Of a stretch of 64,000 bases of DNA, positions 1,028-64,000 are shown one piece after another. This DNA is from Hericium rajendrae. Taxonomy: Eukaryota > Basidiomycota > Agaricomycetes > Russulales > Hericiaceae. The DNA lies in assembly GCA_033439255.1 (NCBI GenBank), contig CM065889.1, positions 620,001 through 684,000 of the forward strand. The letters run 5' to 3'. The notes beneath the pieces were generated by a model. That model was not told where the DNA came from. It saw nothing but the letters and a program-made list of their open reading frames with translations, and made no database searches. Made by a program: the position numbers and the translations under genes. The number at the start of each line of letters is the position of its first letter. Position 1 is the stretch's first letter.

Positions 1028-2180
1028 TCAAGGCGGAACGGTGCTGTCCAGGACATTCCCCGGATCGACGCCGCCCGCCGCCTCATTCGCCTCCTCGAAC
1101 TTGCGCACCTTCTTGGCCCAGCGGAGACCGCACGCATTGCACAGCGTCTTCGGCCCTTTGGGACCCTAACGACCAAAGGGGACAACGGTGAGCGCTGCGT
1201 ACCGAAAGAAGAGAAGCAAAGCCGATCGTCGCACCTTCCTCCACTCAGGCGAGTCGGTGCGCCCACACGTATTGCACACATGCTGCTCCACCGCATACAG
1301 CTTCCTCTGTACGGCAGTGAACACACGCCCCACATCTCCAGGGACGGAACTCGACGCACCTTCTTTCCCACCCGCGTGTCATCCACATCCTCGGCGTCCG
1401 CAACCGACGCATACGACCCATTCGCAGTCGCATACGCCAGCGAATAATACGAGTCCCCGCTCGCCGACAGCTCCCCGCCCGCCGCTGCGCTGCCCCCGGA
1501 CGCCCCGAACGCCGACAGACCCTTCAGCTCCTGCACGCGCTGCCTGAGCCTTGCATTCTCCATCTTGAGCTCCAAAAACGTATTCAGCCTGCAGCATCGG
1601 CAGCATCAGCACCCGCCCCTATGCGCCAGGCCGGGACTCACATCGCGGTGTTGCGGCTCGGGTACGGCTTCGCGACCGCAAAGACGCACTGCGCAGGCAC
1701 GCCGTGCGCGTATCCCGCAAGCTCGAAGAGCACCTCCTTCGGCGCTTGCGGCGCGGCGTACTCCGCGCCGCCAAAGTACTCAAGCTTGCACCGCAGGCGC
1801 GCATACGTCCGTAGCGGCGCGCGCTGCGCAAGCGCGGCCGCAAACATCGCGCGGAAGCTCTCCCGGTCGTTCGCTGCGCCGCATGGGCACGTCAGCCGGC
1901 GTGGGCGGAGGGAGGGGGCGCACCGTTCATGAGCTCGACGAGCTCGCCGTCGACGAGCTCCTCGTCTTTCCACCCGAGCAGCTCCTGCACGGCGCGCCCG
2001 CAGAAGAGCACGCGGCACGTGGGGGAGAGCACGAGCAGGATCGCCTCGCTGAGCTCCGTGACTAGGAGGTCGGCCCAGCGCTTGCGCTTCATGAACTCGA
2101 AGATGGGCGGCTGGCGCGGGACCTGCGCGAGCGCGGCGACGCTGGGGGACGTCGGTGGACGAGGACGCGGACGCTGACAT
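1028..2180 (-). CDS. wc-2: White collar 2 homologue: PAS domain and GATA zinc finger, blue-light transcription factor
   Basis: Partner of the WC-1 flavin photoreceptor; the complex binds GATA-type light-response elements in the nucleus. After a short Ser-rich N terminus comes the PAS core ([40 protein letters not shown]), an intron, then [10 protein letters not shown] and a conserved mid region ending [11 protein letters not shown] coiled segment ([18 protein letters not shown]) leads to a Gly/Ser linker and the GATA finger, C-x2-C-x18-C-x2-C ([14 protein letters not shown] joined across an intron to [13 protein letters not shown]), close to the C terminus at 1028, as in other WC-2 proteins. 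The only sensible ATG is 2178-2180, but its frame joins the PAS frame only if one base is dropped from the G5 run at 2144-2148. Either this is a sequence error or the first exon is misread. Identity is secure, the start less so. Confidence 0.88.
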
Positions 2181-2618
2181 GGTGGATGGGCTAGAAGACG
2201 GTATTCATGTGACGGAGGGATTATATACAATGGCGGGACATGACCACAGAGGACCGGCTACATCGGGCAGGCCTACATAGTCAGCCTTGCCTTTTCGGGG
2301 TGACTCCGCCTTCCATTCAAGTCCTCGACGTCAACTGCAGAGAAGGAGAAATTCATTAAATTTGATTTGTTACATCAAAAGTGTAGTAAGGCCCATAATA
2401 CACCGATGAACAGAGTCTGAGACTAAGCAAGCAAGATAGAAGGAGACCAGGCAGAAGCCGGGGGTAAAAGGGTATTATCGAAATAAAAATCGTTCGGAAA
2501 GTTTTGTGCTGCTCACGCCGCCAGAGCACGCGTGTATCGGATGCGCAACACAGTAAGTTACTCTATGTTCTCTATGCCGATATGTGATATGTCCATGGTG
2601 TGCAGGATCGCGCGTCCA
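2181..2618. other. Intergenic: wc-2 promoter and dehydrogenase 3' region
   Basis: Contains the wc-2 upstream region and the 3' end of the next minus-strand gene. A TATA-like motif (GTATATAAT on the minus strand) lies at 2220-2228. No gene is seen. Confidence 0.55.
2220..2228 (-). promoter_or_regulatory. TATA-like box upstream of wc-2
   Basis: Minus-strand GTATATAAT, about 40-48 bases before the proposed wc-2 ATG. Position fits a core promoter if the transcript leader is short; inferred only from motif and spacing. Confidence 0.35.
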
Positions 2619-4247
2619 TTAGATGATGCAGTAGCCGCCGTCGACGCGAATTTCAGAGCCAGTCATGAATCGCGACGCGTCACTGGATAAGAAGACGATG
2701 GCACCCTGTCACACGAAGCATGCGGTCAGCGCGGCCAAAATAGGATATGCAGAAGGTTACATACAGCCAAGTCCTCAGGTTCACCCATCTGTGACGGGAA
2801 TGTCAGCGAAGCGTTTACGGAAACAAGTCGGAGGTACTCACCCTGCCCATAGGCGTCAGGCTCTCCCAAGTTTTCTGATGGGACGGGAATGTCAGCACCA
2901 CTCCCGATGGAGAGCACACAGGAACATACCTTCAGCTCCTGATCGTGCGTCAGGATCGTCCTCGTGAGCTTGGTCAACATATAACCGGGGCTGCGTGAAA
3001 CAGCCTCAACACATGAACGATGAGCAACAGACGTCACAAACACACCTGAGAGTGTTGACGCGGACGCCCTTCTTCGCCCATTCGACAGCCAAACTGGCCG
3101 CCATGTGCTTGACGGCTACACATGATACGTCACAACGCAGCAAAGAGGCGAGAGATGGAAGCGAACGCACCAGCCTTCGAAGCATTGTAAGGGGTTTGTG
3201 GCTAAATGCGGAAAGAGTGAGCAACCGCCGCGGAGTCTGAAATATGACGGAAGCAAACCTGGGGGATGTTGATGATCTGTGGAGATAAGATAAGATTGAT
3301 CAGTCCGGGATGGAGTGTGGGGTAGGACGAGGTATCAACATACGTTTGCGCTCATGCTGGAAACGAGGACGATACTGCCTCCGCCTTGCGGGATCATGTT
3401 GCGGGCAGCCTCGCGGGCGGTGAAGAACGCGCCGTGCACGTTGATGTCATACAGACGCTTGATGCGGTCAAAGGGGTAGCTGCCAAGGCGATACGTTAAC
3501 TATGTGGGGTGATCAAACCCGTAGCCCACTTACTCGAAAGCGGAGTAGTTCTCCACAATGCCTGTGCGGGGGAAGGTCCGATCAGCATCAGGCGTCACAA
3601 GAGGAGGGCGGCGGCGGGACGCACCTGCAGAAGCGACGACGGAATCTACGCGCCCGAAGGTGTCCATCGTCTCCGCGAACGCCTTCTGGACGGACCGCTC
3701 AGAAGACACGTCACAGCCGAGACCGATGATGTTGAAATCCGTCGGGGCCAGGTCGCTGTTCACTTGAATCTCTTCAGTAACATGTTGCCAGCAAGAGGAG
3801 CAGCAAGCGACACTGACAGCATGCAGTCGCAACGAGCTCGTCCGCCGCGTCCTTCGCCTCCTCCTCCTTCAGATCAAGAATCGCCAGTTGCGTGCATCCT
3901 CTGGATATGGGAAAAGAGTGACGTTAGCATCACGATGACGGACAGCGAACATGGTGACGCACGAGCGCACAAAAGCGCGACAGAACTCGTTTCCTAGACC
4001 CCGCGCACCGCCGGTGATCATGCAGACCTGGCACGTAGAAAGGCATCGTGAGCTGGCGGAAGTGACGGCAGCGAAAATTGCGACGCACCTTGTTTTCCAT
4101 GGAAAAGTCAGGCAGCACCCGCGGCGCCTTCGCGGGAGCCTCGGTGCTCTGCAGACGGACCTGCGCGAGACCGCGGCCGGCGGGGGCGACAGCGCGCGAC
4201 AAGCGAAGAGCGACGGGGAGCGAGCGAGCGAAGAGGGACGACGACAT
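2619..4247 (-). CDS. Short-chain dehydrogenase/reductase with mitochondrial-type presequence (polyol/sugar dehydrogenase type)
   Basis: Classical SDR, NAD(P)-dependent, interconverting an alcohol and a ketone. The start is ATG 4245-4247. Residues 1-35 (MSSSLFARSLPVALRLSRAV..., many Arg/Ser, no acids) look like a mitochondrial import signal. The Rossmann motif follows an intron: ITGGARGLGNEF (TGxxxGxG). Later exons show the DVSSERSVQKAF region, NVHGAFFTAREAARNMIP, the catalytic Ser in VLVSSMSAN, PYNASKAAVKHMAASLAVEW with the catalytic Tyr and Lys, SPGYMLTKLTRTIL, and the C-terminal MTGSEIRVDGGYCII before the TAA at 2619-2621. The gene is split by about nine short introns; the exon carrying the catalytic Tyr/Lys is only 31 nt. 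Family members close to this are D-arabinitol, sorbose or L-xylulose reductases; the exact substrate cannot be told from sequence. Confidence 0.88.
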
Positions 4248-5357: not shown

Positions 5358-8300
5358 TTATAAACATACGAACTTGGACTTCCGCTTCTGCAGCTCGTCC
5401 ATGCGGGTGTCCAGCTGCTGGCGCACCCGCTCCTTGGCTCGTCGTTCCTCGTTGAGTCTGTCCTCCAACGACTGCTTCTCCTCAACGATGGAGCGCCGGA
5501 CAGTGGCAACTTCCCGCTTGGACTCGTGGAGCTCACGCCGAAGAGCTTCGATCTGCACGTTGAGCGTATCGCGCTCCCGCGCTATCTCAGTCGCCTGCAT
5601 GCGAGCCTTGCGCACTAGACACGGCAATCGATTATCAGATACAGCGTCATGAGGCTTTAACTTAATGGCAGATACGTACGATTCTTCTCCGAATCACCCA
5701 GTGAGGTCTCGAGCGTCGCCACCAGATCAATGTGGGTCTGAGATCACCCTCGCAATGCGTCAGCTGCTTGTTGAGCGTCTTGATCATCGTCTCCTGTTCT
5801 TCCATATGCCGCGTCTGCTCTTCGAGCTGCTGGATAAGCTTAGGATCAACCGCGGGCGCGATCGTATGTCCGTTCGCAAGCGATGGCGTGACAGACGTCG
5901 CCGGAGAGTCGAGCTGCGAATCGCGTGATGACGACGTCGAGATCGGAGCCGACGACGGCGCGGACGTAAACGCGTTGTCGTTGCTGAACGAGGACGTCAT
6001 CCTAGGCGCAGGCGGTGCGGGGAACGGATGGCGGGGGCGTAGGAGGCGGCAATTTGGCCGACGAGAGGCCGTTCACGGTGCGATAAGTCATGCTGCGCTC
6101 TGGGATCGGTCGTAATGGCGGGGGCACAGGAGACACATCGTGTGCGGGCGGAGCAGACGCAAGCTGAGCCTGTAGGTCGCGGACAGCGAGCTCCTGCTTG
6201 GTCTTCTCCTCCTGGATCGCGTCTTTCTCGTCCTTGACGCGTTGCAAGGCGTCCTGCATCTCCGCCAGAACGGAGCGGTGCTTTTCGAGCTCGTCGACGA
6301 GCGATTCGCGCTTGGAGGCCTCCCTAACAAGCTTGTCTTGTTCATTGCGCTTTGAATCAAGCTCAGCCCTGAGAGCAGCAACTTGTTCAGCCAGTTCGGC
6401 GCGGTCATTGTGAGCATCTGACAGCTCCTGCTGCAGCAAGGAAATGGCGCCAGACTGCTTGGAAAGAACAGTGACCTGTTCAGCGAGCTCGGCACGCTCG
6501 TGCTGCGTGTCGGCCAACTCTTCCTGCAAGGAAGTAACAGCGGCGGACTGCTTAGAAAGAACTGCGACCTGCTCGGTGAGCTCTGCGCGTCGTTGGTGCG
6601 CGTCAGCCAACTCTTGCTGCAGAGAAGAAACGGCCTCGGACTGCTTGGCAAGGACAGCGACTCGCTCAGCGAGCTCTGCACGTTGCTGCTGTGCACCGGC
6701 CAACTCTTGCTCCAAGGAAGTGATGGTGGCAGAGAGTTTTGACGAGGTGGCCACCTGCTCAGCAAGTTCCGTGCGTTCCTGGTGCGCGTCAGACAGCTGC
6801 TGCTGCAGAGAAGATACTGCGTCAGACTGTTTAGACAAGGTGGTCACCTGCTCAACAAGTGCCGCGCGCTCGTGCTGCGCCTCCGAGAGCTGCTGCTGCA
6901 GAGAATTGACGGCATCGGACTGCGACGACAACGCAGTCACCCGCTCAGCAAGTTCCATGCGCTCTTGTTGCGCGGCGGCCAGCTGCTGCTGCAAGGAACA
7001 AATGGCCTCGGTTTGTTTCGCCAGAGCATCTTCGTGCGATGAATGGTCCTGGTCCCGAGCCTGGGTCTGTTCCTCGATCGCGGCCTTGTGAGACGCCAGT
7101 TCCCGCGCAACGAGCTGATAGTCCTTGCGGAGAGTCTCACGTTCCTGGGAATGCTGGTCCTTCATCTCGGCTAAGGCGGCCGCAAGTTGCTCCTTCTCCG
7201 CGTCCAAGACCTGCGCGCTCTGCTCTCGTGCCGCCTCCAGCGCCAGACGGTGCTCTTCCTCAATCGCAACAAGGCTGGCGTTGAGTTCAGCCATCGCCTT
7301 TTCATGCTCCGCGCGTAATTTAGCATTCTCCTCGGCATGACTCTGCGCCAGGGCAGATCGCTCCTGCTCAGCGCGCGGCGGCCTCTTGCAGCTCAGCCTC
7401 GTGGGAAGACTTGAGCTTAGCGATGTCTTCCTTGTGAACCTCTTCGATGCCTTCCAGAATGACAGCTTGTTGCTCTTTGACCGCAAGTAGCGATGCTTCA
7501 GCCTCTTCGCGTGCCTTGGCAGCCTGGTTCGATGACGTCCCGAACTCATCTTGCACCTTTGCCAAGGAAGTCATCAGCTTTTCGATTTCATGTCCGGCTT
7601 CCGCCTGTGCCTTCGACAGCGCAGCCGCGTGCTCCGACCGAAGTTTCTCCACCGCGACTTTGTGTTCTTCGGTGACGGAGGCCAATGCCTGGATATGGTC
7701 TGCCTTTGTCCTTTCCAAGTCCTGGGCGAAGTCGGCTTCCTTCTTGGCAATGGCGGCGGTGTGCTCGTCCTGCAAGTTCTTCATGGCGAGAGCCTGCGAT
7801 GATTGCGACTCCGAGAGCGAGCCCTCCCGCGAGATCTCTGCCATGCGCAGCTCACCGGCATGCTCATCGCGCAGGCGTTGCAAAATGGTAGCGGCCTCCG
7901 ATGCCTGACGCTCAAGTGCCTCGGCATGTTCACTCCGGAGTTTGGTGAGCCTGTTGTAGTACTCTTCCTCCGTCTTGGCCAAAGTAGCAGCGGCCTCATC
8001 CTCTTTCTGCTTCTGCGCTTCTTCATGTTTCGCCGTAGCCTCTTTAAGAGTGGCCGCATGTTCTTGGCAAAGGTGTTCAAGAATTGCGTTTGCCTCATTC
8101 AGACGGCTCTGGAGTTCCTCTTCATGATCAACCTTGAGCCGGCCGAATGCCTCAGCGTGGTCCTGGTGAGACTTTTCCAGAGCGGTGGATGCATCTGCGA
8201 GCTGTTGAGTTAACTTGTCCAGCGAGGCCGAATGTTCCTCCTTCAGCTTGGCGATAAGCTCGTCAACCTCTTGGCCTTTAACGCGGAGGGCATCTTCATG

Positions 8301-11300
8301 CTCTGACCGTAGCTGTTCAATAGTGGCGGCGTGCTCGGTCTCGGCGTCTTTCAGGGAGGCTTGAAGCTCGGCTTCACGGTTCTCGACTTTCTCGAGCTTG
8401 ATGAGGTTCTGTTCGTGGTTACGACGCAGGCTATCCAGCTCATTGGACATGTTGAGAGTCTGCCGAGCTATATAAGCTTGAGAAAAGAAAATCACAGCAA
8501 TTGTGACTGACCTGGTTCTGTGAAATCGCAGTGAGCTCATCGTGCTGGCGACGGAGCTGCAGGAGATCATCGTTAAGGCTCTCGACGATCTGCCGATGCT
8601 GAGATTCTTTCTGAGCCATAGCCCTGATGAACGCAGTGAATACTAGTTACGCAAGCTATCACGAACAACATACCTCATGAGCTCGTTCAGTCGGTCAAGC
8701 GACTCATCAGGATCAGAGCTCGTCACACTGTCCGTCCGCCCGTGGCCGTTCTGCAGCGCCGACTTGACCTCGTCAAACCGCCCCATCGTCTTCGGGGTCA
8801 GGTATACGCCCGGGCTGGCCATGCCGTTCGTCGGTCCAGCCTCAATCTCTGGAGTAGTCGGCAGCAGGAAGCCATTGCCAGGGCTGCCACTATCCTTGTC
8901 TCTGAGAGTAATTTCGAGATGCGCAATCTCCTGCTCCCGCTCCTTGAGGACGTCCTGCAGGCGCATAATCTCTTTCTCCAAACTGGTGACAGAGCGCTCG
9001 CTTGGGTTGATGTTGACCGAAGGAAGAGAGATGGAGAGGTTGGGCCTCGAGTGATTCGGGGACTGGGAAAGGGTTGGACTATTCGTCCCATGACTAGAGA
9101 TAGAAGATGTCTTTCGCGACCTTGCCAAGGATAGCTCCTGAGATAGCGATTGCGATTGCGAGAGCGACCTGCGAGTATAATGGTTAGCATCAGCTATAAA
9201 TCATGGAAAATGAAAAATGAAAACGCATTACCTCGAATGCAGAGACTCCGTCGAGGCCGCCTGTCGGAAAAAAAGCCGTTTCCCAGTACCATTAAATTGT
9301 GCGTCGCTACCTTCCCTGTGCCTGCCGCCCGTCATCCTGCGCCTCGGCGGAGTCTCGATACTCCCCCTCTCAGGGGAATCCGTGTTCGTCGAAGTAGTCG
9401 CATTGCTGAGCTTCATCTCCTGGATTTGTGCGGCCAGGTCGGAGATCTCACGCAATGCATCACGGTACTTCGCAGTGACCGACGACAGATCCGCGAGCGT
9501 TGCCGTGTGCGTCTGCTGCAGCGCGATGAGCTGGTTCTCGAGCACCGTGTCTGCGTTGTTAGGCGTGGTCGCGCCGGAGACGGGAGTGTGGCCACCGCTG
9601 ACCTTCGCGAATTCGGCCATGTTGGCTTCGAGCTTCTTCTGCGCCTGAGCGACCTCGTCTGCAACCCCTCCGAGACGCTCACGAGCATCCTGCGCTTCCT
9701 TCCGTTTTGCTTCCCATTCCGCCATCTTGACCTCTAGATCACGCACATGCTGCTCGCGCTGCTCGAGATCTGTCCTCCAGCTCTCACCATCTCTTTTCAG
9801 GTTATCGAGACGCTCCTGCAGAATCTCTGCCTCTTGTCTGCGACGGTCGCACTCATGCTCGAGCTTCTCGACAGTGTGGCGGAGAGCAAGGACTGATTCG
9901 TCTGATCGTGCTAGGCGGGCCTCCAGATCTGCAATGTACTGGGAAGAGTGAGACTCCGTATCCTTGAATTTACCGAGTTCGCGCTTGAGTTCACCCATTG
10001 ACTCGCTGGAGCTGGTATGTGTCTCGTCGTACATCTTGATCTTCTCCTCAAGATCGTGAACGTATGCCTGAAAGATGAGCATATAGTGAGCCAAATTCAG
10101 CCTGAGAGCGGCAGAAGACGTACTTCAGTTGACGCTTCGCGCTCGGACAATTTGGCAACTCGCGCCCTCAGTTCCTCGACATAGAGCTCTGTCGCACCCT
10201 TTCGGTCCAGAAGCTGGCTGAGCTCCTCCTCTTTCTCTTCAACTAACTCGTTCGTATGTCTCAAAGCAGCGCGGTTCAAGCTAAGTTCCGCCTCCATCGC
10301 GCTGATCGTCTTCTCATACTCCTCGATGACAGGGCCGACAATCTCTTCGTACTTGCTCATACCAGGGATGGCGCCCGTCTGCGATGAGCGGTGCGACTCG
10401 CCATGCTCCCGGCGAAGGCGGTTGAGTTCCTCGTTACGGGCGACGTACTTCTCGCGGAGATCTTCATAGCTGGTCTTGAGGTCGTTGAAGCTCGCCAGCA
10501 TCTTCTTCGATGCAGGTCCCTCGACCTCTCGCACCTCGATCGGCTGGCCCTGAGGAGGTAAGACGCCACCCTCTTTGATGACCTTCACCTCCTTCCTCAA
10601 TCTCGTCACCATTCCCTGCAGCCACTCAACATCATCCCAGCCCTCTTCTTTCTCCGTGATCAGAGCCCGATTCTTGATGTTACGCGCCCGGTTGGCATAT
10701 TTCAGCGTATTGACAGTCTCCGCGGCGTTCCATTCCGCCGGACTCACACACGCGACCATGAGAGTATGCGCGTTACCTCCGAGCGAATCCTGAAGGAGTC
10801 GGGTGAGTTTCGAGTCGCGGTAAGGCACGTATGATGCAGTGTGTGATTTGATGCGTGCGGGATCTCCAAGAGCAGAGATGACATTGCCTAGGGCAAGGAG
10901 ACCACTGTTGATGGAAATGCCCTCCTTGATACGTTCGCCCGCGGCAGCTGTGCGCTTCAACTACATAAAGGGCATTTGTCAGGACGACACAAAAGGCTGA
11001 CGTATGAGATAGACACATACGCGCTCGGAGCCAGCGAGGTCGACAAAATGGAACTTCGACACAACCGTGATCCATTCGCCGGAGTCATCATCCACGCTCG
11101 CACGCCCTTCAGCACCATGCGTGCCGAGTGCGCTAGCTGGACGGAGACCGCCCCTACCCATCGCTGATGCGAAACTGGGCGTTCCGGGACGGCCGAACGT
11201 AGGCGATGAGATTCTGCTGCCTGATGGCCCGGCGATCATGGAACCTGGTCGAACGAGGCGTGATGGCGAGCGACCGGTCGGTGGAAGAGGCGAGGAGGAG

Positions 11301-12234
11301 CGTGGAGAAGCTCCGCTGCCGGTGAATTTCCTCTGAGTAAGAGTCAAAGAAAAGATAGCATGCGAACGGGAGGACTGAGCATTCATGTCCGTCTCGTTCG
11401 TCCGTCGAATCGCAGTCCCTTGACGAATAAGGCTGCATTGAGCGGTTAGCAGTGTATGCGGCAGGATACGTGATCAGAAGACTTACTGCATGACTTCCGC
11501 TGGATTCTTCACAGCAACCTCACGAAGACCACCCCAGATTATTGAACCATCCTTGCCCTCACGAATCTGTACTTCGCGCTTAGCACCGGTTTTCTCGTCG
11601 ACAGTTAATAGGTCAAGCAGATCCTCGTTATAGACTTCAAGGAAAGAACCCTTCAGACTGTAGTTCCAAGTACTACCGCGATCTTGTTTAAGCTCCTTTG
11701 CACCCTCGAAGATAGTGGATACAGCACGGGGGATGATGCCCATACCGTTGTCAGGGTCAGACGGGTCCTGGTCAAGGTCAATACCCGTCATAGTGAAGGT
11801 CTTCCCCGAGCTGGTCTGCCCGTAGGCCAGGATGGTGCAATTGAAACCCTCCAAGAAACGCGAAATGAGCGGCTTCGCGGTCGACGTGAAGATAGCATGT
11901 TGGGTCGAGTCTTGGCCGTGAACCTGATCGAAAGTGAACAGTTGCTTTTTGGTGTTGGCAGCATTAGACGCTGCCTGATTGACAGCTGACCCAGCACCGG
12001 TGGATGAAGGAGTGGAAGACGTTGCGTCTACTGAGACTGACGTTGCGGAGGTGGCGTGAATGACGGTGCGCTGAAAACGAGCGGGAATGTTGACGGCATC
12101 CTGTGGTGTTGTAGGCCGTATACGAAGTGCTAGAGATGCCTTAGCAACGCTGGACGCGAGGAATGAAGAGAGGCGCGAGACTCACCAACTTGCACGGACG
12201 TGGTCGCCGCACTCGACGACGACGGCGGCGCCAT
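5358..12234 (-). CDS. Large kinesin-4-type motor protein with extended coiled coil
   Basis: Plus-end-directed microtubule motor, N-terminal motor head and a very long rod (about 2,000 residues in all). Start ATG 12232-12234 ([16 protein letters not shown], then an intron and [11 protein letters not shown]). Motor motifs: P-loop [13 protein letters not shown]; switch [14 protein letters not shown]; switch [46 protein letters not shown]; neck-proximal [14 protein letters not shown]. The last three resemble kinesin-4 (KIF4/KIF21). A Ser/Pro-rich insert of about 85 residues sits between switch I and switch II. The rod has EH-rich repeats and a seven-copy 93-base array. It ends [15 protein letters not shown] at 5358. 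Conserved frame is lost and regained near 7371-7380, 6019-6022 and 5740, each by one base, so the printed sequence does not encode one uninterrupted chain. Kinesin-7 is a less likely alternative class. Confidence 0.87.
6388..7038 (-). repeat. Seven tandem 93-bp units encoding a 31-residue coiled-coil repeat
   Basis: On the plus strand, related blocks begin at 6388, 6481, 6574, 6667, 6760, 6853 and 6946, exactly 93 bases apart (examples CAGCGAGCTCGGCACGCTCG and CAGCAAGTTCCGTGCGTTCC). On the coding strand each encodes a 31-residue unit of the type [16 protein letters not shown] followed by [14 protein letters not shown]. Lengths are conserved while bases have diverged. The array lies inside the kinesin rod. 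Confidence 0.9.
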
Positions 12235-21915: not shown

Positions 21916-24303
21916 CTACGACGCAGGCACCCCCTTGCGCACCTCGCGTATCACGCGGAGCGCCTCCTGCTGGTCACACCGCAGCGCGCCCATAATCTGC
22001 GCAACCTGCGCCCGCAGCGCCTCCAGCTGCTCGACGCGCGCTGTCGCACTCAGGCCCGTGAGGTCGAGGCTCGGCGGCTTCACCGCGCGGCTCTGCCCGA
22101 AGCTCGCGCGGCCCGGGCGGGGGACGTGGTGCTGCGTCGAGGGCGGGGGCGGAGGCTGCTGCGCGAGGGGCGGGAAGGCGGAGAGAGACGAGGGCTGGGC
22201 TGAGGGGGACGCGTGGGCGTTAGAGTACGCCTGCAGATCGCGGTATGTCTGGGGATGATGCCTCTTCGCAAGGCCATTCTGCACGGCTGCTGGTGGTTGA
22301 GCAGCCCGGCTCTGCTGAGTGATGGCCGCGACCTGCTGTCCCGCGCCCGATGATCCGGCAATGGGTACCGGCGAGGGAGACAGACTACCGTAGGGCTGCG
22401 GTGTTCTGGAAGGGCCAGGCTGGTTGCTTGCAGACAGCATTGGCTGGGCGGCGCGGCTCTGGGCACGGGGAATGCCCGCTGAGACCTGCGTCATGTTCTG
22501 CGGAGCCACCCATGTAGCATGCCTGCCCAACGCAGACGCCGCCCGTTGCCCCTGATTGTGCACACCCTGTGCGCCAGGCGTCGTCCGCGCCGCGTTCGTC
22601 GAGCGCGCGATGCGCACCGGCGCTGCCGCCGGCGAACACGCACGCTGCGCGCCTTCCTGCGCCGTCCACGTCGCATATCGGCCCAACGCTGGCAGCGTCT
22701 GCTGTCTTTGGTTCTGGCTCGGCGCAGGCGGCGTCGCGCTCGACGAGCCCGCGAGGGGATGCCGGGGGAGACAAATCATCTTGGCCGGCGAGGGCGCCTC
22801 CTGCGTTGTCCATGTCGCATAGCGGCGTAACGGCTGCACATGTCGCAGCAGGTTCTGGTTCTGCTGAGGCACCGGCGGCGTTGCACTTGATGGACCTGCA
22901 ATGGGTGCTTGTCCATATCCCTATTCGAAGGCACTTGCGCTTGAGCGGCACTACTCTTGGACGAGGGTGCTTGACGGAACATCGGGAGTCAGGGTCTGCG
23001 CTGCCCATGTGGTCTGCGGACTCGCGTCTTGCATCTGGTCCAGCAGATGACTGGTATCCTGCGAGCACTTCGGATGGAGAAGTATAGTCGTAGGTTGATA
23101 TGTGTCCGCGAATTGCAGTTGCGGCTGTGCGGCTTGGTTCTGCTGGTGGGGAGTACTCGAAGGGACCTCTGGTGTTGGGGCCTGTCCCGTCCATGTAACA
23201 TGCGGACTCGCGTGCTGCGCCTGGTCCGGCAAATGCTGAGGGACAGATGCCTGCAACGAAGATTCGGCGAACGCTTCCTGTACAAATGGTGATGGAGATA
23301 AGCCGCCTGAGGCCTGAGGTGCATTCGAAGGCTGCATGCTCGAAGCCGGCCGCGGCTGCGCGAAGTGATCCTGTTGAGCATAAGCAGCCCATACGGCTTG
23401 CTGTTCCTGTTGTTCGTGCGCTGCCTTTGTCGCATATTCGTCCATCGCAGCGAACATCATCTGTTCTAGCTCTTCCTGTTGAGCCTCGTTCAGCTGATGC
23501 TGATGCTGAGGAACAGGCGCGGCAGGCATTGCGACGCGGGGCGCCTGTATGTGTGCCGCGTTCGATGGTCCTGCCACAGGCGCCGGCGACGGAGAAGGGT
23601 TCCAGCCGACTGGCGATAAGCCCCGCGCAACCGCAGGAGTCAGTCGAGCTGCGGGGGTCTGTTGCGGCGAGACGTGCGGAGCCTGTGCATTGGCAGTGAG
23701 GCGCGCGGGAATAGGTGTGGCGGCGGGTGCAGCTTTCATACGATTGCGAAGACGGGCTTGTACCCATGGCGGCATAGGCCCCCCAAAATATGCCCATTTG
23801 AGGTACTCCAGATGTTGTGCAGCTACGATCGGATGAGCATGGGCTCTGTTGGACGTCAGCGAACGCAACCTTTGTAGGATAGAAGAGAACGCACCCAAAG
23901 TCTTGGTTGCGGTTGAAGTCCTTGCAACACCACATCTCGTGGAACTTTTTCTCTCGATCAAGATAAAAGCATGTGTGCTGAATTTCGCTGGCTTTGGGGA
24001 TGTACTCGTGACATTCGAAGCAGTATACGACAGTCTGGGACGCGGTCAGTCAGTACGCCACACAGACGCGCGGACGCGACTTACCTCGCTGCCGGTGCAC
24101 TTGCACTCTCCGGTACCCTCCTTGGACGCATTCGATTCATTAGCCACTGGACGCATCGCGAGGACGGTGCGTCCGCGTGGAGATATAGCGAAATCGTTCG
24201 GGTGCAGCAGCAGCTGCGCGTTCGCGGTGTCCAGCTTCGACACCGGCGGGTAACGGTAGGGGGCAGGCTTAGGTTGGTGGGGGAGGGTAGGGATTTTAGG
24301 CAT
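21916..24303 (-). CDS. Hypothetical protein: N-terminal Cys/His cluster and Gln/Pro-rich 'ATW' repeats
   Basis: Not recognised. The start is ATG 24301-24303 (MPKIPTLPHQPKPAPYRYPP). Around residues 65-115, across an intron, is a dense Cys/His cluster: CKCTG, YCFECHEYIP, IQHTCFYL, KFHEMWCCKDFN, i.e. C-x-C-x8-C-x2-C-x11-(H)-x-C-x9-H-x3-C-C, suggesting bound zinc. A short helical stretch follows (HPIVAAQHLEYLKWAYFGGP), then about 600 residues rich in Gln, Pro, Ala, Ser with recurring motifs HVTWTGQ, QTTWAAQ, YATWTTQE, YATWTAQE, HATWVAPQ, and a final helix (ARVEQLEALRAQVAQIMGAL) near the C terminus. Three single-base frame breaks at short homopolymers (23894-23896, 22984-22986, 22919-22921) separate these parts; two in-frame stops lie between the last two. 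Likely nuclear or scaffold-like, but function is unknown. Confidence 0.6.
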
Positions 24304-24353
24304 CTCGACGGGAAGAAAGAAGGTAAAGGCAGACAACAAGGGCGGACGATACC

Positions 24354-24910: not shown

Positions 24911-24960
24911 GTCCTCGTCGCTGAGCGTTAATATCACACTTAAACCGACCCGATTCCACA

Positions 24961-29330: not shown

Positions 29331-29990
29331 ACTCGGGCGATTGCCCATGATCTCACGATCCTTGACGATACATGGCGTTAGTGGACCTCAGAACTGTGGT
29401 CAAACCTTTCTTGTATGTAGCATATCCGCTGTGGAACCCGTTATACCAGATGACTTAGAGTCTTATACATGGCGTCGGGATTGTAAGGATGAGCAGAAGG
29501 GACTGACGTTCGAAAGTTGAACGACAGGTCGTAGACTAACAAATTGATCGTCAGGCCCCTCCAAATCTAGTCTCCAAAGCGACCGTATCACACGCCTTCC
29601 TTCTGAGGTGGGAGGAGATGGATACTCCAAATCGTTGTCTTGATCCCCTTCCCGATGATTTATGCACTGGAAGTGACGAACGACGGTTGGAAAACAATTC
29701 GGAAAGGATGGGATCTGATTGCAGTCGATAATCGATACAAGTACATAGGCTCCTTATGTGCTCCCACGACGAGTATGAGTATACCGTATAATGGTTGCCT
29801 CGTTGCATCTCAACCTTACAAGACTCGAGTCTTGCCCCTCCATCGCATCTATCCCTCAGTGTCTTGGATCGTAAGTGCATGCTGGCAATAGTCCAGTTCA
29901 TTTCAAAATGCTGATCTGATATTCAGTGCTCAGTGGGACATCGTGGCTGAATTGATAGTGGCATCGTGGCCATGAAGATAGGATCACAAT
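29331..29990. other. Intergenic, no gene seen
   Basis: About 660 bases between the aminotransferase and the F-box gene. AT-richer than the flanks. Open frames on both strands here have no domain. Confidence 0.45.
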
Positions 29991-44937: not shown

Positions 44938-45563
44938 TTAGTCCTCATCTGACCCGGGCTCGTCCTCGCCAGGCCCCGCTTGCGACTGCATTGCGCCCAA
45001 AAGGTCATCGGATTCGCCTTTTGAGCAGCAAGCCTTTGACCTGATAGCAGTTATAAGCCGCAGCGAAGTAAAAGCGTACAAAAACGCACGAATAAGTGTA
45101 TGAATTGCCTGCTGAGTTTCCCTCTCGAGTCTGGAAAGCTTCTTCTCCATCTCTCGCTTGAGATCCCAGTTGGGTCTTTGGGAGCAATATTCAATAAGTC
45201 CTGCAGAATTCGTGAGTAAACAGTGCCACCATGAGACAGAATATCAAACGCACAAGTTCCTGTGCTCTCCTCTCCTCATCTTCAGCGATGATACGCTCTG
45301 CCAGGCCTTCCACCTCCCTCTCAACAGTGTCATCCATCTCAACGTCCTCAACAGTTCGTTTGCGGAGCGTTCGCGTCTCAGGATCGAAGTTTCTCGTGGC
45401 CAGAATCGGCTCTGGGGTTGCCGTACTGTGGAACGTGAATATGTGTTGTCAGCAAGACCATGACTATCTCGTACCTCTCCTCATCAATAGCCTCGCCAGC
45501 CCTCCTCTTCTTCAGTGCAATGAGACGCGCTTTTCGTGCTTCGGACGCTTCAGTCAGAGACAT
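44938..45563 (-). CDS. cwf18: Cwf18/CCDC12 spliceosome-associated protein
   Basis: Small component of the Prp19/NTC-associated active spliceosome. Start ATG 45563 (MSLTEASEARKARLIALKKR). Further exons: ILATRNFDPETRTLRKRTVE, REVEGLAERIIAEDEERRAQ, EL-DLLNIAPK, then RPNWDLKREMEKKLSRLERE, TQQAIHTLIRQRLAAQK and GESDDLLGAMQSQAGPGEDE ending in GSDED. The match to the family is end to end. Two one-base frame breaks lie at A-runs (coding strand): 45177-45179 and 45019-45022; each needs one extra A. Three introns. Such a short essential gene being doubly broken favours sequence error. Confidence 0.87.
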
Positions 45564-48976: not shown

Positions 48977-50444
48977 CTACAGATCGTTGACCTCATCGCC
49001 ATAGGATTCCTTGACCAGTCTACAAAATGTAGATGTCAGCATCCCAAATAATATGCAAGCCATTTCTCGCAGCAAGCTCACCTGTAGACAGAAGCTGGTG
49101 GATGATCGCCACTGAAAGCAAGTCAGTCACTAAATTAAATACGTCATGAACTAAAGCTGGCCGAGACTTACTCATTCGTGATGTATACATCGACCAACTC
49201 TGGTCTGACATAGTCGTAGTAGGGGCTGATAACGTCCACTTTGTCCACCAGTTCACCCTCTTCAAACCCAAGCACGCTGCTTGGGTCGGTAAAATCCAAT
49301 GCCGCATAGTCGTGATATAAATTCCATAGCGGGGTCAGCTTGAATTGCCCTGCGCACACCACGACCGGCGTGCTGTGCGCTTTGGCAGCATTTGCGGCGA
49401 GGAGTGAGCCGCTCAGGGCGTACATGCCTCCGTTCGCGAGGATGGTATGCGCGCCGAGGATGACTTTGTTGACGCGGGACATAAGGGCATAAATTGAAGA
49501 GTCAGGGACGAGGAAAGTTGAGATTCCTGATGAGGATAGCGATGCAGCGATGTCATGGCCGCCATAGCTTTATGCGACACGGATGCATTAGCAACAACGC
49601 GATGACGATACGGAGTGAGGAGCCTTACGTAGGTCCGCTTTCGGCCACGATGACGGTAAAATTGCGGTAATGAGCTGCAGACTTCAGAAACGCTTCCACT
49701 GTTCTTGACTTGCCAATGGTCAGTATGATTTCACTGAATATGTCGATGAGCAAGAGTGGTCAAGGACGCCAGATCATGAAAAGCGCACTCGGAATGTATG
49801 TGATCCTTCGCACTTTTTGAAATGTTATCGTATACCGTCTCGAGTTCGTCAAGGACGTCTTGAATTGCCTCCATCAGCACCGGCTTCAACGTCCTCGCGA
49901 ATGAATCCGGATCATCCGGATCGTTCTCCTTGAGAACCAAAGCCGACTCATTCTTCTGCGTCGTGACCTGCTTTCGGGGCTGGCCCTGCAGCATAAATGT
50001 CGCGATAGAAAAGTTGGCTGTGGAGGTAGAAGCAGAACCCTTGGACGCATTGTTGTACTCTTCGCGCAGAAGATGAGTAGTTTGCGGACAGTGTTTCCAA
50101 CGGAGTGTTCTGATATTATTCTGATGAGATACGTCTGTACATGAACGTGTATCCAGGAATGATGAACACCTTTCGGCTGAGCTTCACTGAGCTTCCTGCC
50201 TACGCTCCGAATGATCTCCACCAACTGGTCGATGTTTTGGAAGCGCGCTCTTGAGATGACCTGTCGCAACACAGCGACTGTCTCCAAAGCTGCGGTTCGC
50301 GAGCCCAGGACTTGCCTGTAGAAATCATCTTATTGATTACGGTGCATATCTACTGAATGAATCCCTGACTCACCGTCTCCGGAGTTTCGCTGCTAGCGCC
50401 TCTATCGCGCGCTGACTGGCTGGGTTTGGGACATCAAGAGGCAT
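48977..50444 (-). CDS. GCD7: eIF2B subunit beta (translation initiation guanine-exchange factor)
   Basis: Regulatory subunit of the decameric exchange factor for eIF2, sensing eIF2-alpha phosphorylation. Start ATG 50442-50444 ([20 protein letters not shown]). N-terminal helices: [37 protein letters not shown]-like block, [23 protein letters not shown]-terminal Rossmann-like half: [75 protein letters not shown] and the closing SYGDEVNDL before TAG at 48977-48979. About six introns. One frame break near 50075 (a missing base in [15 protein letters not shown]) interrupts an otherwise perfect match. Confidence 0.92.
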
Positions 50445-56309: not shown

Positions 56310-57920
56310 CTAATCGCCGTCATCGTCGACGACTATCGGTTTGTCTTTGCTGTTATCCTGGCCGCATTTTTCTAGGTAATCCCGGATAGAATTGAAAAAT
56401 ACGTCCATCTGATCCTCGGAGAACGTGAACACGTCGCCGAGAAATTCAATCGTCTCCTTGAACTCGGCCGGCTCCTTATCGAGGTTCAGCGGCGTGTAGC
56501 GCACCATTATGGAAAGCTGGTCTCTTGATTTGATGGGCGGGGGAGGGGATGATAAGTTGTCTTGACTAGCCGTTGGCACCCATTGTCGCTCCAGGATGAA
56601 GCTTAGACCTGTGTGCCAACAACATGAGATTGGTCTTCTATGATAAGTCCAGGAAAGACTCACTAGCTTTGGTCTCATTATGTGTGAAGACGCAAGAAAA
56701 TGTCTGGTCCTCTAGATCGAAGTACGCGCTCTTCTCGATCCTGATGTTGGTGACAAGGATGTTCGTCATGTCCTCGTAGAGTCGGATGACAGCGCCGTTC
56801 TTAGGGTCATTGTGAGCAGCATCTGGCGCGGCGCGCGAGCGTGCTGCGGCTGGTGGTTCGCGGCCTACTTTGGCCTGAAGCTCACTGCACCGGTCAATCT
56901 CGAGTTTCAGCTCCACGTCCTTCTCGGACACTACCCAATGGTTAATACGACGCGCTGTGGACTTGCGATTTAGAGCCCACCTGTCTGCTCGAGCTCTGCG
57001 ATCCGCGCATCTCTCTGCGAAATAAGGGTATCTTTGTCGTTGATGACGCCTCGCAATCTCTCGACCTCTTTCTCGACGGTGTGCTTCGCCTGGTTTGCGG
57101 CGTCTTGTGTGAGGAAATGCAACGTCGATGTCCGTCCAGATTCAACCATAGGCTCGATGCGTGCCATCTGGGATGTTATCTCTTGTATTAAGTCATCCTT
57201 CGCTGTGAATTGTGTTCATCATCTGCATATTAACAAGTGACGTGTCCCGTACGCACCTCGATTCACCGATTCCGACTGAGCCTTCTCGAACTCGAGCGCA
57301 ACCTCCGCCTCCGTCTGCCTGATGGTTATCCATTCTTTCACCTGCTCGGAGAGTTTGTCTCGCTGTGTTGTCACCTATGTAGAGGCGATCGGAAAACTCA
57401 ATGGTAAATCAAGAAATGAACAATACCTCGCGAAGCTGCTTCCGCAACCGCTCCACTCTCGCGCTGTCGGGCCCTCACTCGACCGCGACGAAGACGCGCC
57501 ATTGATCTTCGCCGGCGCAGCCTCAGGCTTCTTCCCCTTCGCCTGTGCCCTCGACGGTGGCGCTTTTGCAGGTGCTGGCTTGCCTGCCTTCGCTGGCGGT
57601 GCTTCGGGTTCGACGCGTACAGCGCCTCTATGCCATCCTCGTCGTCCGTCCCAGGCAGCGTCTCCGGGGACAGTCGCGTGGCCTTGCGCGCTTTAGACGT
57701 CGTGGCCGTGGCATTCACCTTTGAAGCAGGCTTGGAGGGCGCGTTGGAGGGTGCGCCGCTGCTGTCGGGCAGCTTCCGCTTCTTGTTGGCCGCGACGGGT
57801 TTGTAGGGGTGGTGGGGTCATAGCCGTCTGTAGATGTGGAGTCGCTGACGTCTAGCAGAGCGTGTGGGATATGGGGTAGAAACGTTTCGCACCTATTTCG
57901 TCTATGTCCGACATCGACAT
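56310..57920 (-). CDS. PCS1: Csm1/Pcs1 monopolin-type kinetochore protein
   Basis: Coiled-coil protein with a C-terminal globular Csm1 domain; in yeasts it crosslinks kinetochore microtubule-binding sites and tethers rDNA. Start ATG 57918-57920 (MSMSDIDEI). A basic, Ala/Pro/Lys-rich N terminus leads to helices RVERLRKQLREV, EWITIRQTEAEVALEFEKAQ, HTVEKEVERLRGVINDKDTL, ISQRDARIAELEQT, VELKLEIDRCSELQAKVG. The globular part reads AVIRLYEDMTNILVTNIRIE, YFDLEDQTFSCVFTHNETKA, LSFILERQWVPT, VRYTPLNLDKEPAEFKETIE, FTFSEDQMDVFFNSIRDYLE, ending in an acidic tail. Six introns. Frame breaks in the N-terminal low-complexity part at 57814-57817 (G4), about 57605, and about 57469-57473; the C-terminal half is clean. 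Confidence 0.87.
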
Positions 57921-58486: not shown

Positions 58487-60688
58487 ATGTCTTCCATGGA
58501 GGCAGCACTTCAGGATTACTACGCCCGCCGCTCTGCCTTCATTCAAGAAGACAGATCTCTCCGTCGGGAGAACGGGCGCCTCGCTGTCTTGACCGAGAAC
58601 GAGAGGCTCGCGGATAAAATCGTGCGCGACATTCGCGCCGAAGAGGAACTGTCGATATGGGGCGCGAAGCACGAGGACGTCGTCCATCCGTTTCCCGGGA
58701 TGGAGTTCCTCACAGGTAAGGCATGGTGGAATGACCGCTGTTGCCATCGTGTGACTGCTTGCATCCAGGCAAGAAGCTCATCGACAAGACGAAGCTGTTC
58801 CGGATTGTCTCCAAGGTTGGTGGTCTGTCGAGTTTTACAACGGTTGCAGTGAATCAACGGTGCGGTAGATGCCAAAAGGTGCCGTCCTGCACGCGCACTT
58901 TGATGCGACCGTGGACGTGAAGATCCTCCTCGAGCTCGCGTACAAGCATGCCGATCGTATACACGTCCGCACGCCGCATGTCCTGAACGCGTTGAATATC
59001 GTCGACACAGTTCCCGACTGCATGCCGCTGCCCGACGAACATGAGAGTACTACGCATAGCGTGACGCACGCGGACTACGTGCCGGGTTCATGGGTGTCGC
59101 TGGCGAATGCCCGAAAGACATTTGAAAAACCCTGGGTGGCCCAGAAGGTTTCGACAAATGGCTTAAGGATTCGCTGATGATCAATCCGAGCGAGGCCTAC
59201 GGGACGCACAATACCCTACATAAGGTCTGGACTCTACGCTGACTGTAGCCTCGGAACGCAGGGCGCTGACGTTGTCGCAGATCTGGCGCAAGTTTCTGAC
59301 AACCTTCCAAGTAGCTAGGGTGCGTCCGCCGATCACCAGAGGGATGCATGTTCACGGTCTCGAAGGGCCTGATTTTTTATCGACCACTTTGGGTCGAGTA
59401 TATCCGCAAGTTCTTCATGACGTTCATAGACGACGGCGTATGGTATCTTGAACCTCGAATTCCTTTTTATCACAAGTAAGTCCGTTGACATCCTTTGTTC
59501 TAAAGCGCACGAAACTAGCTCGATGCTTGCAGGATGATGCATGACGCGGACGGACATCTGACTGTGCCGCATCGGGAGTGGATGCTCGACTTCGAACGCG
59601 TCATGAATGAAGTCAAGGAGGAACTCAAGGCCGAAGGCCGAGAAGACGACTTCGTTGGCGCGAGGGTGAGCCGTTCCAGAGGCATGGTCATTATGGTTCT
59701 CTGAAATGTTCTGCGCAGATCATTTATACCTCGCTGCGAAATCTTTCGCCGGAAGATTTGCAGTGGTATATGGACGACTGTATCGCACTGAAGCAAGAAT
59801 TCCCACATCTCATTGCAGGTTGGTACTTCTCGAATCTTACAAGCTCTTGAATTAATATGTGGAAGGCTTTGACCTCGTCGGGGACGAAAATGTCTTCAAC
59901 CCGCTCGCATACTACTTGCCCCAGCTCTTAGCGTTCAAGGAGCGAGTGGAATCGCTCGGTCTGGATCTTCCACTCATCCTACATGCGGGCGAGACCTGTA
60001 GCGATGGAGGGAAAGCCGATGTCAATCTTTACGACGCCATCTTGCTAGGCACAAAGAGAATTGGACATGGGTAGTCATTTACTCACCAAATGGTAGTTTG
60101 TCTGCTGACGACGTCATGCAGATACTCAATTGTAAAGCACCCAAAACTCATCCAGATCTGTAGAGAGAACGGCATATTACTCGAAGTCTGCCCCATCTCG
60201 TAAGCTCATCCTTTTTTTCTCAGGTCCCCGGACTTATCAGAAGCTGACAGCAACGAAGTGCTGGTAAGCACATGCCCGATGTGCTGTAAGATATGCTGGT
60301 GCCTAATACGCCTCACAGCGTCTGACATCATCCATGCCCACACATCATCTGCCTATCATGCTCAGCCAAGGAGTGCCCATTGCCCTGTGCCCCGATGACC
60401 CGTCGGTGTTCGGAAGCATGGGGCTTTCGTACGACTTTTTCCAGGTGCTCGTGGCGAGCGAGCTTACAGGCATCATCACGCTGGCAGAGATTGCTCGGGA
60501 CAGTCTCACGGTGAGTTTGCCAGCGTTTGACTGCGACTTATGGACCCGATGATGACGGCTCTGTTCAGTATTCGACACTAGAATCCGCCGAGAAAGACCG
60601 TGCGCTTGCTATTTGGGAAAAGCGCTGGGCAAAGTTCGTCGATGAGATCGTAGCCCTAGATCGCACTGGCGATGGGCTTCAGAACTAG
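58487..60688 (+). CDS. Adenosine deaminase-like protein, ADGF/CECR1 (ADA2) type
   Basis: Zn-dependent deamination of adenosine to inosine. Start taken as ATG 58487 (MSSMEAALQDYYARRSAFIQ), with an alternative at 58418; neither begins with a signal peptide. N-terminal PRB-like helices (RLAVLTENERLADKIVRDIR), then MPKGAVLHAHFDATVDV with the metal His-x-His, FYRPLWVEYIRKFFMTFIDD, GVWYLEPRIPFY, MNEVKEELKAEGREDDFVGA, IIYTSLRNLSPEDLQWYMDD, GFDLVGDENVFNPLAYYLPQ, LILHAGETCSDGGKADVNLY (metal His, catalytic Glu), LGTKRIGHGYSI, GILLEVCPIS, PIALCPDDPSVFG (metal/catalytic Asp). More than ten introns. In the stretch 59125-59136 two nearby homopolymers (A5, G3) each seem one base too long, interrupting the match to ...NPGGPEGFDKWL. 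Confidence 0.88.
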
Positions 60689-61228
60689 ATAGAGAAGTCC
60701 GACTTCATTGTCGACGATCTGATAGAGTGCTTCGACAGCGCGATGTGGTGGGGGGATGGGAGGAAGTTGCGTTTGGGTCATTTTAGCACGTAATTGTATT
60801 TGTGATGGATGTGGACAAATATTTGGAAGGGCGCGACGCCACCTGGAAAGACTATTTGCGCGTATTTCGGCTTTAAGGGCGACGAAGTGCGATGCAAAGG
60901 GGCGGTGCCATTGCTTGCTGAACACGCTCGCCTTGATCCCGACATCGCGCGCCCACCACCCAGCCAAGTCCTCCCGTCGACTGTAGCGTCGTCGTCGTCA
61001 CCGTTGCTGTTGTCGCGCTCTCATCAATCAAGGTATGTTGTTCATCGCACCGGTCGTCGTCCGCACCCCATCACACTCCCCTCACCACCATCGACTGCCC
61101 CTGCCGCAGACCATACCCACCGCATCATCTGACGTCCCGCATCCGCCCCACCTCCTACTTTCCGTGTCCTTTCCTTTCCCACAAGACCCACCCGTGTTTG
61201 CACTAAAAAAAGAGAAACTAAAGCGACG
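60689..61228. other. Intergenic: KH-protein promoter and leader
   Basis: Between two plus-strand genes; CT-rich leader with A-run (61204-61221) just before the ATG. No supported gene. Confidence 0.5.
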
Positions 61229-62718
61229 ATGCCAGAGTCCGATTCGAACCGCAAGCGGTCGCGGTCGCCTTCTGACAGTGAACACGAAAAACACCACAAG
61301 CGTGCCAACACCGGCGCTACGTCGATTTCGGATGACTCAACGGCCCCGACCTCGAGTGCTCAGCCTCAGACCTCGTCTTCCTCGCTTTCCTCCGCTCCCC
61401 CGGCCGTGATGAATGACGTAACCATGGTCGATTCCGCTGCTGCAAACAAACGCTCTGCTTCTCCCTCTGACCAGCAACCAGCCCAGAAGCAGGCCTCCCT
61501 GCTGCCGCCGATTCCGCCCCCGACTCCATGGCAGCGGCCCCCGATGACTCTGCAGCCACAACCTCTGCGCCGCCCTCGTCGTCGTCGTCGGGCCCTCCGC
61601 CCCCACCCCCGTCGGCGCATATCCACATGCGATGCCTCATCGTCACCCAGGACGCGTCCATCATCATCGGTAAGGGCGGCTCGCACGTCAACGAGATTCG
61701 GGAGAAAAGCGGCGCACGCGTCATGGTCTCGGAGAGCATCCCCGGAAACCCCGAGCGCATCCTGAACGTCAGCGGCCCCCTCGACGCCGTCTCGAAGGTC
61801 AGCATGCCGTGTGGCCCACTCATACACCGTTATCTGACTCTCGCTCGCAGGCGTTTGGACTCATCGTTCGTCGCATCAACGATGAGCCCTTCGACGTTCC
61901 CTCGGTACCCGGCAGTCGCGCGGTCACGATCAAGTTCATGATCCCGAACTCCCGCATGGGTTCCGTCATCGGGAAGCAAGGCTCCAAGATCAAGGAGATC
62001 CAAGACGCCAGCGGCGCGCGCCTCAACGCCAGCGAGGGAATGTTGCCTGGCTCGACAGAGGTCCGTCTGACTCATTTCTTCTGCCGACTTGCCCCTTATA
62101 GCCGCCTCTTCCCTGATGCAGCGTGTGCTCAGCGTCGCGGGAGTCGCTGATGCTATTCACATTGCCACGTACTACATTGGCAATATTCTCATAGAGGCGC
62201 AGGAGCGCATGCCGTCGCACGCGAGCGCCAACTCGTCGTACCGGCCATCGAACAGGCGTCCTGCCGGCGCGGCGTACGTCGGCTCGTCGTACGTGCCGGG
62301 TTACTCAAACCCGTACGTGCAGGGAGGTGCGCCGGGCCCCGGCGCGCCTGTGGGAAATCCCCCGCAGCAGCTGCAGACGCAGCAGATTTACATCCCGAAC
62401 GATCTCGTCGGGTGTATCATTGGCAAGGGCGGCAGCAAGATCAACGAAATCAGGCATATGAGTGCGAGCCAGATCAAGATCATGGAGCCTGGCGCAACCA
62501 GCAATAGTGCGAATGGTGCGCCTGCTGGCGGCGAGGGCGAGCGTCTTGTTGTCATCACGGGCCCGCCTGCCAACATTCAGATGGCGGTGCAATTATTGTA
62601 TCACGTCAGTCTTTCGTCGCTTTGCCCTGGTTTCAGTTCATTGAATGATCTGTCACAGCGTCTCGAGCAGGAGAAGCAAAAGCAGCTCCGTGCGCAACAG
62701 ACCGGGGGATCAGCATGA
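61229..62718 (+). CDS. Triple KH-domain RNA-binding protein (poly(rC)-binding / Rnc1-Hek2 type)
   Basis: Binds C/U-rich RNA and controls mRNA stability or localisation; S. pombe Rnc1 and yeast Hek2 have the same layout. Start ATG 61229 (MPESDSNRKRSRSPSDSEHE), with an N-terminal SR/RS-like and Ser/Pro region. KH1: CLIVTQDASIIIGKGGSHVN and EIREKSGARV; KH2: FMIPNSRMGSVIGKQGSKIK and EIQDASGARL; KH3: IYIPNDLVGCIIGKGGSKIN, EIRHMSASQIKIM. All three keep the GxxG loop (GKGG, GKQG, GKGG). KH2 and KH3 are joined by a Gly/Pro/Tyr-rich linker. Three introns. The N-terminal frame meets the KH frame only after one base is added in the C3 run at 61497-61499. Confidence 0.9.
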
Positions 62719-63291
62719 TCCTGATCCATCAACAAATGCATGCGGACATTCTGCCTCAGGTCTTCAGTTTCATCCCAATGCGAATATTTCTTGTTCTTGC
62801 TCTGCTTTTACAGACCTTCTTGCGTTTCTGATCTGCTACCGTCTCATTTACTTATACACCTCCTCTAAGTCACACCACCACGCTCGGCTCGGCTCACATC
62901 CCCACCCTGCATCCCCTCCACTCATCACCCTCACGTATCCTTACCCCAACCCTACCATCTGTCCCATGCATACAGTAAGCCCCATTGCCCAAACCCACTG
63001 CTCCGTTTCTGTTGTTTCCGCGAAGTACCTTGCTGCTTGTTACGTCCGTAGCTGTCATTCGTATGTCGTGTATATACGTCCGTACTATCGTCGGTGTGGT
63101 TCTGAATGCGATATCTGAAATAAGAACCGTTTTACTCGGTATTTCCTCTTGCTCTGCCTCGAGACTTGCTGTCAGGCAGTCCCATTTCGGCCATTTACGT
63201 AAGCGAAAAGTCAAGATCAGAGCAGCTTGCACTTGGTCCGCTCTATCCAGTCTTCAGCTCACCCCATATCTTTCTTCCTCTCATTGTTTCA
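62719..63291. other. Intergenic: KH-gene 3' region and BRX1 leader
   Basis: Pyrimidine-rich throughout, consistent with 3' and 5' untranslated sequence. No supported gene; a 157-codon plus-strand frame across the KH-gene end has no domain. Confidence 0.5.
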
Positions 63292-64000
63292 ATGGCGTCC
63301 GTTCTGAAGGCACAAAAGGCGAACGCGCTGACGGCAGAGGCAAAGGGCAAAGGCAAGCGCAAGGTAGACGACATGGACGTGGATGAAGAGGAGGGGCCAG
63401 CGCACCCGTGCCGAAAAAGAAGAAAAACAAGCAGCGGGTGCTCCTGCTCTCCTCGCGCGGCGTAACGCACCGCATGCGACACCTCATGAACGATCTCGAG
63501 GCGCTGCTTCCCCACGTGAAGAAAGGTGCGTTTCGATCCCTCTCACAAGAATGACGGAAGGCTCACGGGCCCGCAGACTCGAAGCTGGACTCGAAGAACC
63601 ACCTGCACCTGCTCCCGGAGCTCGCGGACCTGCACAACTGCAACAACGCGCTGTACTTCGAGGCGCGGCGGCACGAGGACCTGTATCTCTGGGCGGCGAA
63701 GACGCCGAACGGGCCGAGCGTGAAGATGCACGTCCAGAACGTGCACACGATGGACGAGCTCAAAATGACGGGCAACTGCCTCAAGGGCAGCCGCGGCATC
63801 CTCAGCTTCGACGCCGCGTTCGACGCGACGGAGTGGGGCCGTCTCGTGAAGGAGCTGTTTACGCATGTGCGTTGAATGTGCGCTGGTGGACGGCTTGGGG
63901 TTGACCATTTTGCAGATATTTGGTGTTCCGCCGCAGGCGCGCAAGGCGAAGCCGTTCATTGATCATGTCCTGACGTTTTCGTTGTTGGACGATAAAATTT
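63292..64000 (+). CDS. BRX1: BRX1 ribosome-biogenesis factor (Brix domain), 5' part, runs off the window
   Basis: Nucleolar factor for 60S subunit assembly, binding pre-25S rRNA. Start ATG 63292 (MASVLKAQKANALTAEAKGK). A Lys/Asp-rich lead is followed by the Brix domain: NKQRVLLLSSRGVTHRMRHL, NDLEALLPHVKK, an intron, DSKLDSKNHLHLLPELADLH, NCNNALYFEARRHEDLYLWA, MHVQNVHTMDELKMTGNCLK, GSRGILSFDAAFD, an intron, IFGVPPQARKAKPFIDHVLT. The start frame and the Brix frame differ by one base near 63400-63410 (expected Ala-Pro-Val-Pro before the Lys run). The remainder lies beyond base 64000. Confidence 0.92.

Follow-up and report, generated by a model that had tools for sequence, protein, structure and literature searches.

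Does a cluster of conserved genes, each interrupted by a shift of a single base, reflect gene death in the organism or a fault in the assembled sequence? The question arises from a 64-kb stretch of the Hericium rajendrae NPCB A08 assembly (C12:620001-684000, GenBank contig CM065889.1; hereafter, the window), in which a preliminary description had listed about 20 one-base frame breaks in conserved genes, many of them in homopolymers, and had taken assembly error as the simplest reading. We examined all 20 listed sites and found that 8 are supported (cwf18 near 45178 and 45020, GCD7 near 50075, ADGF near 59127-59135, the kinesin gene at 7371 and 5740, and the PCS1 gene near 57815 and 57605). Another 4 are probable (BRX1 near 63395-63405, the KH gene at 61334-61510, WC-2 at 2144, and the gene at 32404), 6 are undecided (kinesin 6019, hypothetical gene 22919 and 22984, and F-box gene 30489, 30739, and 31512), and 2 were rejected (hypothetical gene 23894 and GID7 36919). 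The features are collected in Table 1. Judged from the assembly sequence and the published sequencing route, the frame breaks are very probably residual one-base indel errors of a nanopore assembly, and they are best explained as an ordinary artefact that holds no biological surprise.

Three-frame views were used for the conserved genes and open-frame lists for the hypothetical, F-box, and 32.4-kb genes, and introns spanning each of the 20 sites were scored. A splice-aware gene finder was trained on the window and 25 10-kb loci, the same sequences on which its codon model was then tested. For 22 gene regions, we measured the gain in bits from allowing one free frame shift, a test in which regions read as intact reach 9.5 bits (asparaginase) and 9.1 bits (the motor half of the kinesin gene). 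Break-free models were compared with read-throughs, in which an X marks the break, through searches of PDB and Pfam; Pfam searches with isolated short pieces were uninformative.

Conserved protein continues across the breaks in cwf18, GCD7, and ADGF

A net one-base shift flanked on both sides by conserved protein was found at cwf18 45178, GCD7, and ADGF. At the first of these, a few bases and a change of frame separate DLLNIAPK from PNWDLKR, and the two motifs are contiguous in PDB chains of CCDC12 and cwf18, to which the alignment runs gapless over the break. Reading through both cwf18 breaks gives a Pfam score of 126.2 bits, compared to 103.1 bits for the break-free spliced model; the second break, near 45020, has a homology anchor only on its upstream side. 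In GCD7, the motifs on the two sides of the break adjoin without a gap in the eIF2B beta chains aligned, and the Pfam score is 203.1 bits for the read-through and 186.2 bits for the spliced model. The flanks of the ADGF break both align to 3lgd_A (CECR1), the downstream one also to 9nti_A, and no Pfam family was found in the break region with either the read-through or the break-free model. The run at 59134-59136 in this gene had been described as one base too long, whereas the change that we found is a net -1.

These comparisons bear on whether intron-exon borders have been mistaken for breaks. Nearly every gene has a break-free splice model, an intron is the correct reading at hypothetical gene 23894, and one is possible at kinesin 6019, KH, and BRX1. 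However, splicing in cwf18 and GCD7 drops conserved residues and costs 23 and 17 bits, respectively, so that the well-formed intron without loss of conserved residues seen at 23894 has no counterpart at cwf18 45178 or in GCD7. Intron scoring and the three-frame view also gave no well-scoring intron that fits across kinesin 5740 or 7371. We consider misread introns extremely unlikely as the explanation of the breaks.

Codon usage and frame continuity point to breaks in the kinesin and PCS1 genes

Homology on both sides of a break was not obtained for kinesin, PCS1, KH, WC-2, or BRX1, and the kinesin and PCS1 breaks were identified by codon usage and frame continuity. In the kinesin gene, whose motor exon matches Pfam PF00225, a free shift gains 17.2 bits at 7371 and 14.8 bits at 5740. 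The coiled-coil region of this gene also contains 93-base tandem repeats (window positions 6420-6993). The PCS1 gene gains 14.9 bits, with model sites at 57816-57818, 57619, and 57455 that we read together with the three-frame view; the frame change near 57475 is an addition to the 20 listed sites. A Pfam search with the C-terminal part of this gene found no kinetochore family, which leaves the name PCS1, taken from the preliminary description, unconfirmed.

Some known +1 frameshift sites adjoin TGA, as does the shift at kinesin 7371, and programmed ribosomal frameshifting in many genes of this fungus would also produce one-base frame changes. Such a mechanism would be expected to leave a shared motif and a single direction, but shifts in both directions occur, and no common motif was apparent by eye (no statistical motif search was made). 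We regard programmed frameshifting as almost inconceivable as the cause.

TABLE 1 Genes and other features of the window that bear on the frame breaks (window coordinates)
Feature	Position	Strand	Observation
WC-2 gene	1028..2356	-	Probable N-terminal frame change, 2141-2148; PAS and GATA parts unbroken
Kinesin gene	5358..12099	-	Net +1 at 7371 and net -1 near 5740, both in coiled-coil half; no break in motor half; 6019 undecided
49-nt intron in hypothetical gene	23846..23894	-	GTGCGT...CAACAG plus branch site, score 4.5
F-box-like gene	29972..31834	+	Frame changes near 30489, 30620, 30740, and 31512
Gene at 32.4 kb	32325..33855	-	Frame change near 32404, borderline; weak PHD-like match
GID7 (WDR26-like) gene	37217..39728	+	Modelled without frame shift from ATG 37217
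cwf18 gene	44938..45563	-	Broken twice, each net -1, near 45178 and near 45020
GCD7 (eIF2B beta) gene	48977..50444	-	Net -1 near 50075, between VGNTVRKL and HLLREEYNN
Gene named PCS1	56310..57920	-	Frame changes near 57815, 57605, and 57475
ADGF-type adenosine deaminase gene	58496..60688	+	Net -1 between 59127 and 59135
KH-domain gene	61229..62718	+	Probable frame change somewhere in 61334-61510
BRX1 gene (extends past window end)	63292..64000	+	Probable net -1 near 63395-63405

Other listed sites are weaker or are not breaks

In BRX1, a free shift gains 12.3 bits and the alignments show homology picking up again at KNKQR. The best spanning intron scores -2.0, and a 59-nt intron with poor signals (63364-63422, found by eye only) could likewise join the frames. 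The KH gene gains 12.6 bits and has an intact KH_1 domain downstream; a break had been described at 61497-61499, and a frame change is indeed probable, but the model places it at 61334. Since intact regions reach 9.5 bits, the gains for WC-2 (10.6 bits) and the gene at 32404 (9.5 bits) lie at the edge of the free-shift test. The break-free WC-2 model carries Pfam GATA and PAS_3, and the PHD match of the 32404 gene scores 16.9 bits, under the cut-off of 24. The F-box-like gene shows little codon signal in the open-frame list, with an F-box-like match on one piece (E value of 1.9e-6), and may be a true decaying pseudogene among assembly errors.

Two of the described breaks have other explanations. 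The run at 23894-23896 in the hypothetical gene is the donor of an ordinary 49-nt intron, which has a branch site and scores higher than any other intron across the 20 sites. The GID7 gene has an unbroken model that begins downstream of the proposed break at 36919; gene finding with and without frame shifts agrees on this model, which has LisH_WDR26 (65.5 bits) and WD40 matches. A minority of the listed sites are therefore not errors, namely the intron at 23894, the GID7 site ahead of its gene model, and perhaps those in the F-box gene, if it has decayed.

Core genes are also broken elsewhere in the assembly

The assembly that we examined comprises 19 contigs and 46,767,965 bases (the largest contig has 5,307,752 and the sixth 3,238,877). 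We surveyed exon junctions across the whole genome with four Pfam families, using 253 of the 261 listed matches (98,952 bp) and 106 junctions (43 kinase, 20 TCP1, 17 HSP70, and 26 SNF2). Single-intron offsets at these junctions are mostly 49 to 71 bases. Two of the 106, in a kinase and a chaperonin subunit and both on C7, have one-base offsets in different frames, and both resemble one-base frame breaks in sequence. The survey would miss the first cwf18 break, whose profile matches resemble an intron.

In the C6 glutaminyl-tRNA synthetase gene, we confirmed that the frame is lost between PRLYTL and GALISF. On C12, a DUF1776 gene (near 688 kb) rises from 33.9 to 47.6 bits in Pfam upon read-through and a choline-transporter gene (near 308 kb) from 53.6 to 113.9 bits, and only the read-throughs match almost the full length of the family. 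Breaks thus occur in unrelated core genes elsewhere in the assembly (C6, C7, and C12), as expected of assembly error. A nucleoside-hydrolase case (L012 6435) gains just 1.1 bits with Pfam and was identified by reading, and one control region (L022 4579) is undecided.

The involvement of core genes on these three contigs also bears on whether the genes are true pseudogenes, broken in the organism by decay. The F-box gene fits that description, having four or more frame changes and a poor codon signal, but decay of the core genes would have to have occurred on C6, C7, and C12, and cwf18 has a single matching locus in the whole assembly. As an account of the breaks in general, true decay is highly improbable.

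We also considered whether the window is worse than the rest of the assembly, and the codon-model counts do not mark it out. With a 14-bit frame-shift penalty, the gene finder called 2 shifts over the 10,432 codons of the window, compared to 9 over the 40,262 codons of the controls. One free shift gained at least 12 bits in 2 of the 15 regions tested in the window and in 13 of the 41 tested in the controls. The codon model has low sensitivity and merges genes; of the 16 control regions inspected, which include the C6 glutaminyl-tRNA synthetase and L022 4579, most look spurious. Nor was an excess on C12 shown, with an accepted break in 2 of 4 C12 loci and in 2 of the other 21 (L008 and, by reading only, L012; P of about 0.11).

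A kinase-like gene lies in a long inverted duplicate shared by C7:2657701-2669200 (L029 and L032) and C12:1406501-1418500 (L028 and L033). The duplicate has 98.8% identity over 6.2 kb and then 93.8% over 3.2 kb, and extends to the left edge of the C7 stretch examined; it may be a mobile element, a segmental duplication, or a leftover second haplotype. Near-equal weak SNF2-helicase matches occur at C2:655-1164, C5:4540-5049, C8:55094-55603, and C4:4250-4762, three of the four less than 5 kb from the contig start, resembling subtelomeric helicase families. A 5.8S match, sought in the assembly as a route to its error rate, was not found.

The sequencing route is consistent with residual indels

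According to the assembly report (PMC10608310), the NPCB A08 assembly was built with NECAT from R9.4 nanopore reads, polished twice with Racon and twice with Pilon, and then passed through purge_haplotigs, a route that starts from indel-prone reads, as expected of residual long-read assembly error. The same report describes a dikaryon with 3.61% heterozygosity and a BUSCO completeness of 91.6%, compared to 96.4% and 97.5% for two relatives. Other reports, the Kastor paper (PMC12007338) and similar papers on long-read indels (PMC8812927, PMC9262707, and PMC9985148), describe long-read assemblies with indel errors that fragment genes, and what these share with the window is one-base consensus indels that split genes and are left over after polishing. 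In contrast to the mainly bacterial or insect/CLR workflows covered there, the Hericium sample is a heterozygous dikaryon, and several of its sites are not in long runs. For the failure of polishing at the break sites, we infer that reads of two diverged nuclei, combined with nanopore indel errors, may leave places that polishing does not resolve. Where such places fall inside exons, they would appear as frame breaks in genes that the cell must use.

To evaluate the association with homopolymers, we took the 8 supported sites plus BRX1 (n = 9), at positions partly placed by the preliminary description, and looked for runs within 9 bases. Runs of at least three bases occur at 8 of the 9 sites, compared to 51% of random gene positions (P of about 0.02), and runs of at least four at 3 of the 9, compared to 13% (P of about 0.11); for all 20 listed sites, which were partly picked for runs, the count for runs of at least three is 18. 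A global truncation of homopolymers was not supported, as run-length counts of the window are close to those in a first-order simulation and in 25 control loci.

Several observations weigh against residual error. The homopolymer link, although most breaks do lie near runs as had been described, is weak once the baseline is counted, and run lengths overall are without truncation. The 2 one-base offsets in 106 junctions are fewer than the window would suggest, in a test that misses breaks near introns. The two copies of the C7/C12 duplicate, aligned in two pieces over 9.3 kb in all, differ by 229 substitutions but by just 2 isolated one-base gaps, apart from 2 further one-base gaps inside one complex gap, and so few gaps show that polishing was good in parts of the assembly. 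The assembly report also gives a depth of 118x with Illumina polishing (PMC10608310). As to the breaks themselves, cwf18, GCD7, and ADGF gain just 6.2 to 7.6 bits in the codon test, no more than intact genes, so it is homology that carries these breaks.

Residual assembly error nonetheless accounts for core genes broken on several contigs, for shifts both ways, and for the sequencing route. It remains the best reading, as first proposed and with an error-prone route now documented, although that proposal included 2 sites that are not breaks and had the direction of the ADGF shift wrong.

Two nuclei and the argument from essentiality

Assembly error had been favored on the ground that essential genes cannot all be dead. 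That argument is weaker than stated because the second nucleus of a dikaryon can cover a dead copy, and at the heterozygosity of this strain essentiality alone cannot exclude dead copies. The frameshifts could then be real in one nucleus, with a working gene supplied by its partner; recessive load in dikaryons could let dead copies survive as long as the other nucleus has a working one, and roughly half of the reads should then show the break. However, the nuclei of a dikaryon each derive from a viable haploid, so that one genome is unlikely to hold many dead core genes (splicing, initiation, chaperonin, and tRNA synthetase), and the protein beside the breaks is conserved without sign of decay. 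Sheltered null alleles are accordingly very unlikely. We would give equally little credence to their stronger form, in which each nucleus bears dead core genes (cwf18, GCD7, a chaperonin subunit, and glutaminyl-tRNA synthetase) that its partner supplies, making the nuclei mutually dependent.

Reads would separate these readings, since nearly all should disagree with the assembly if the breaks are errors, and about half if they are sheltered null alleles. In dikaryons, care is needed in arguing that essential genes cannot all be dead. With residual one-base indels as the very probable cause of the breaks, the gene models, gene-loss calls, and predicted proteins of NPCB A08 will hold false splits and false introns.

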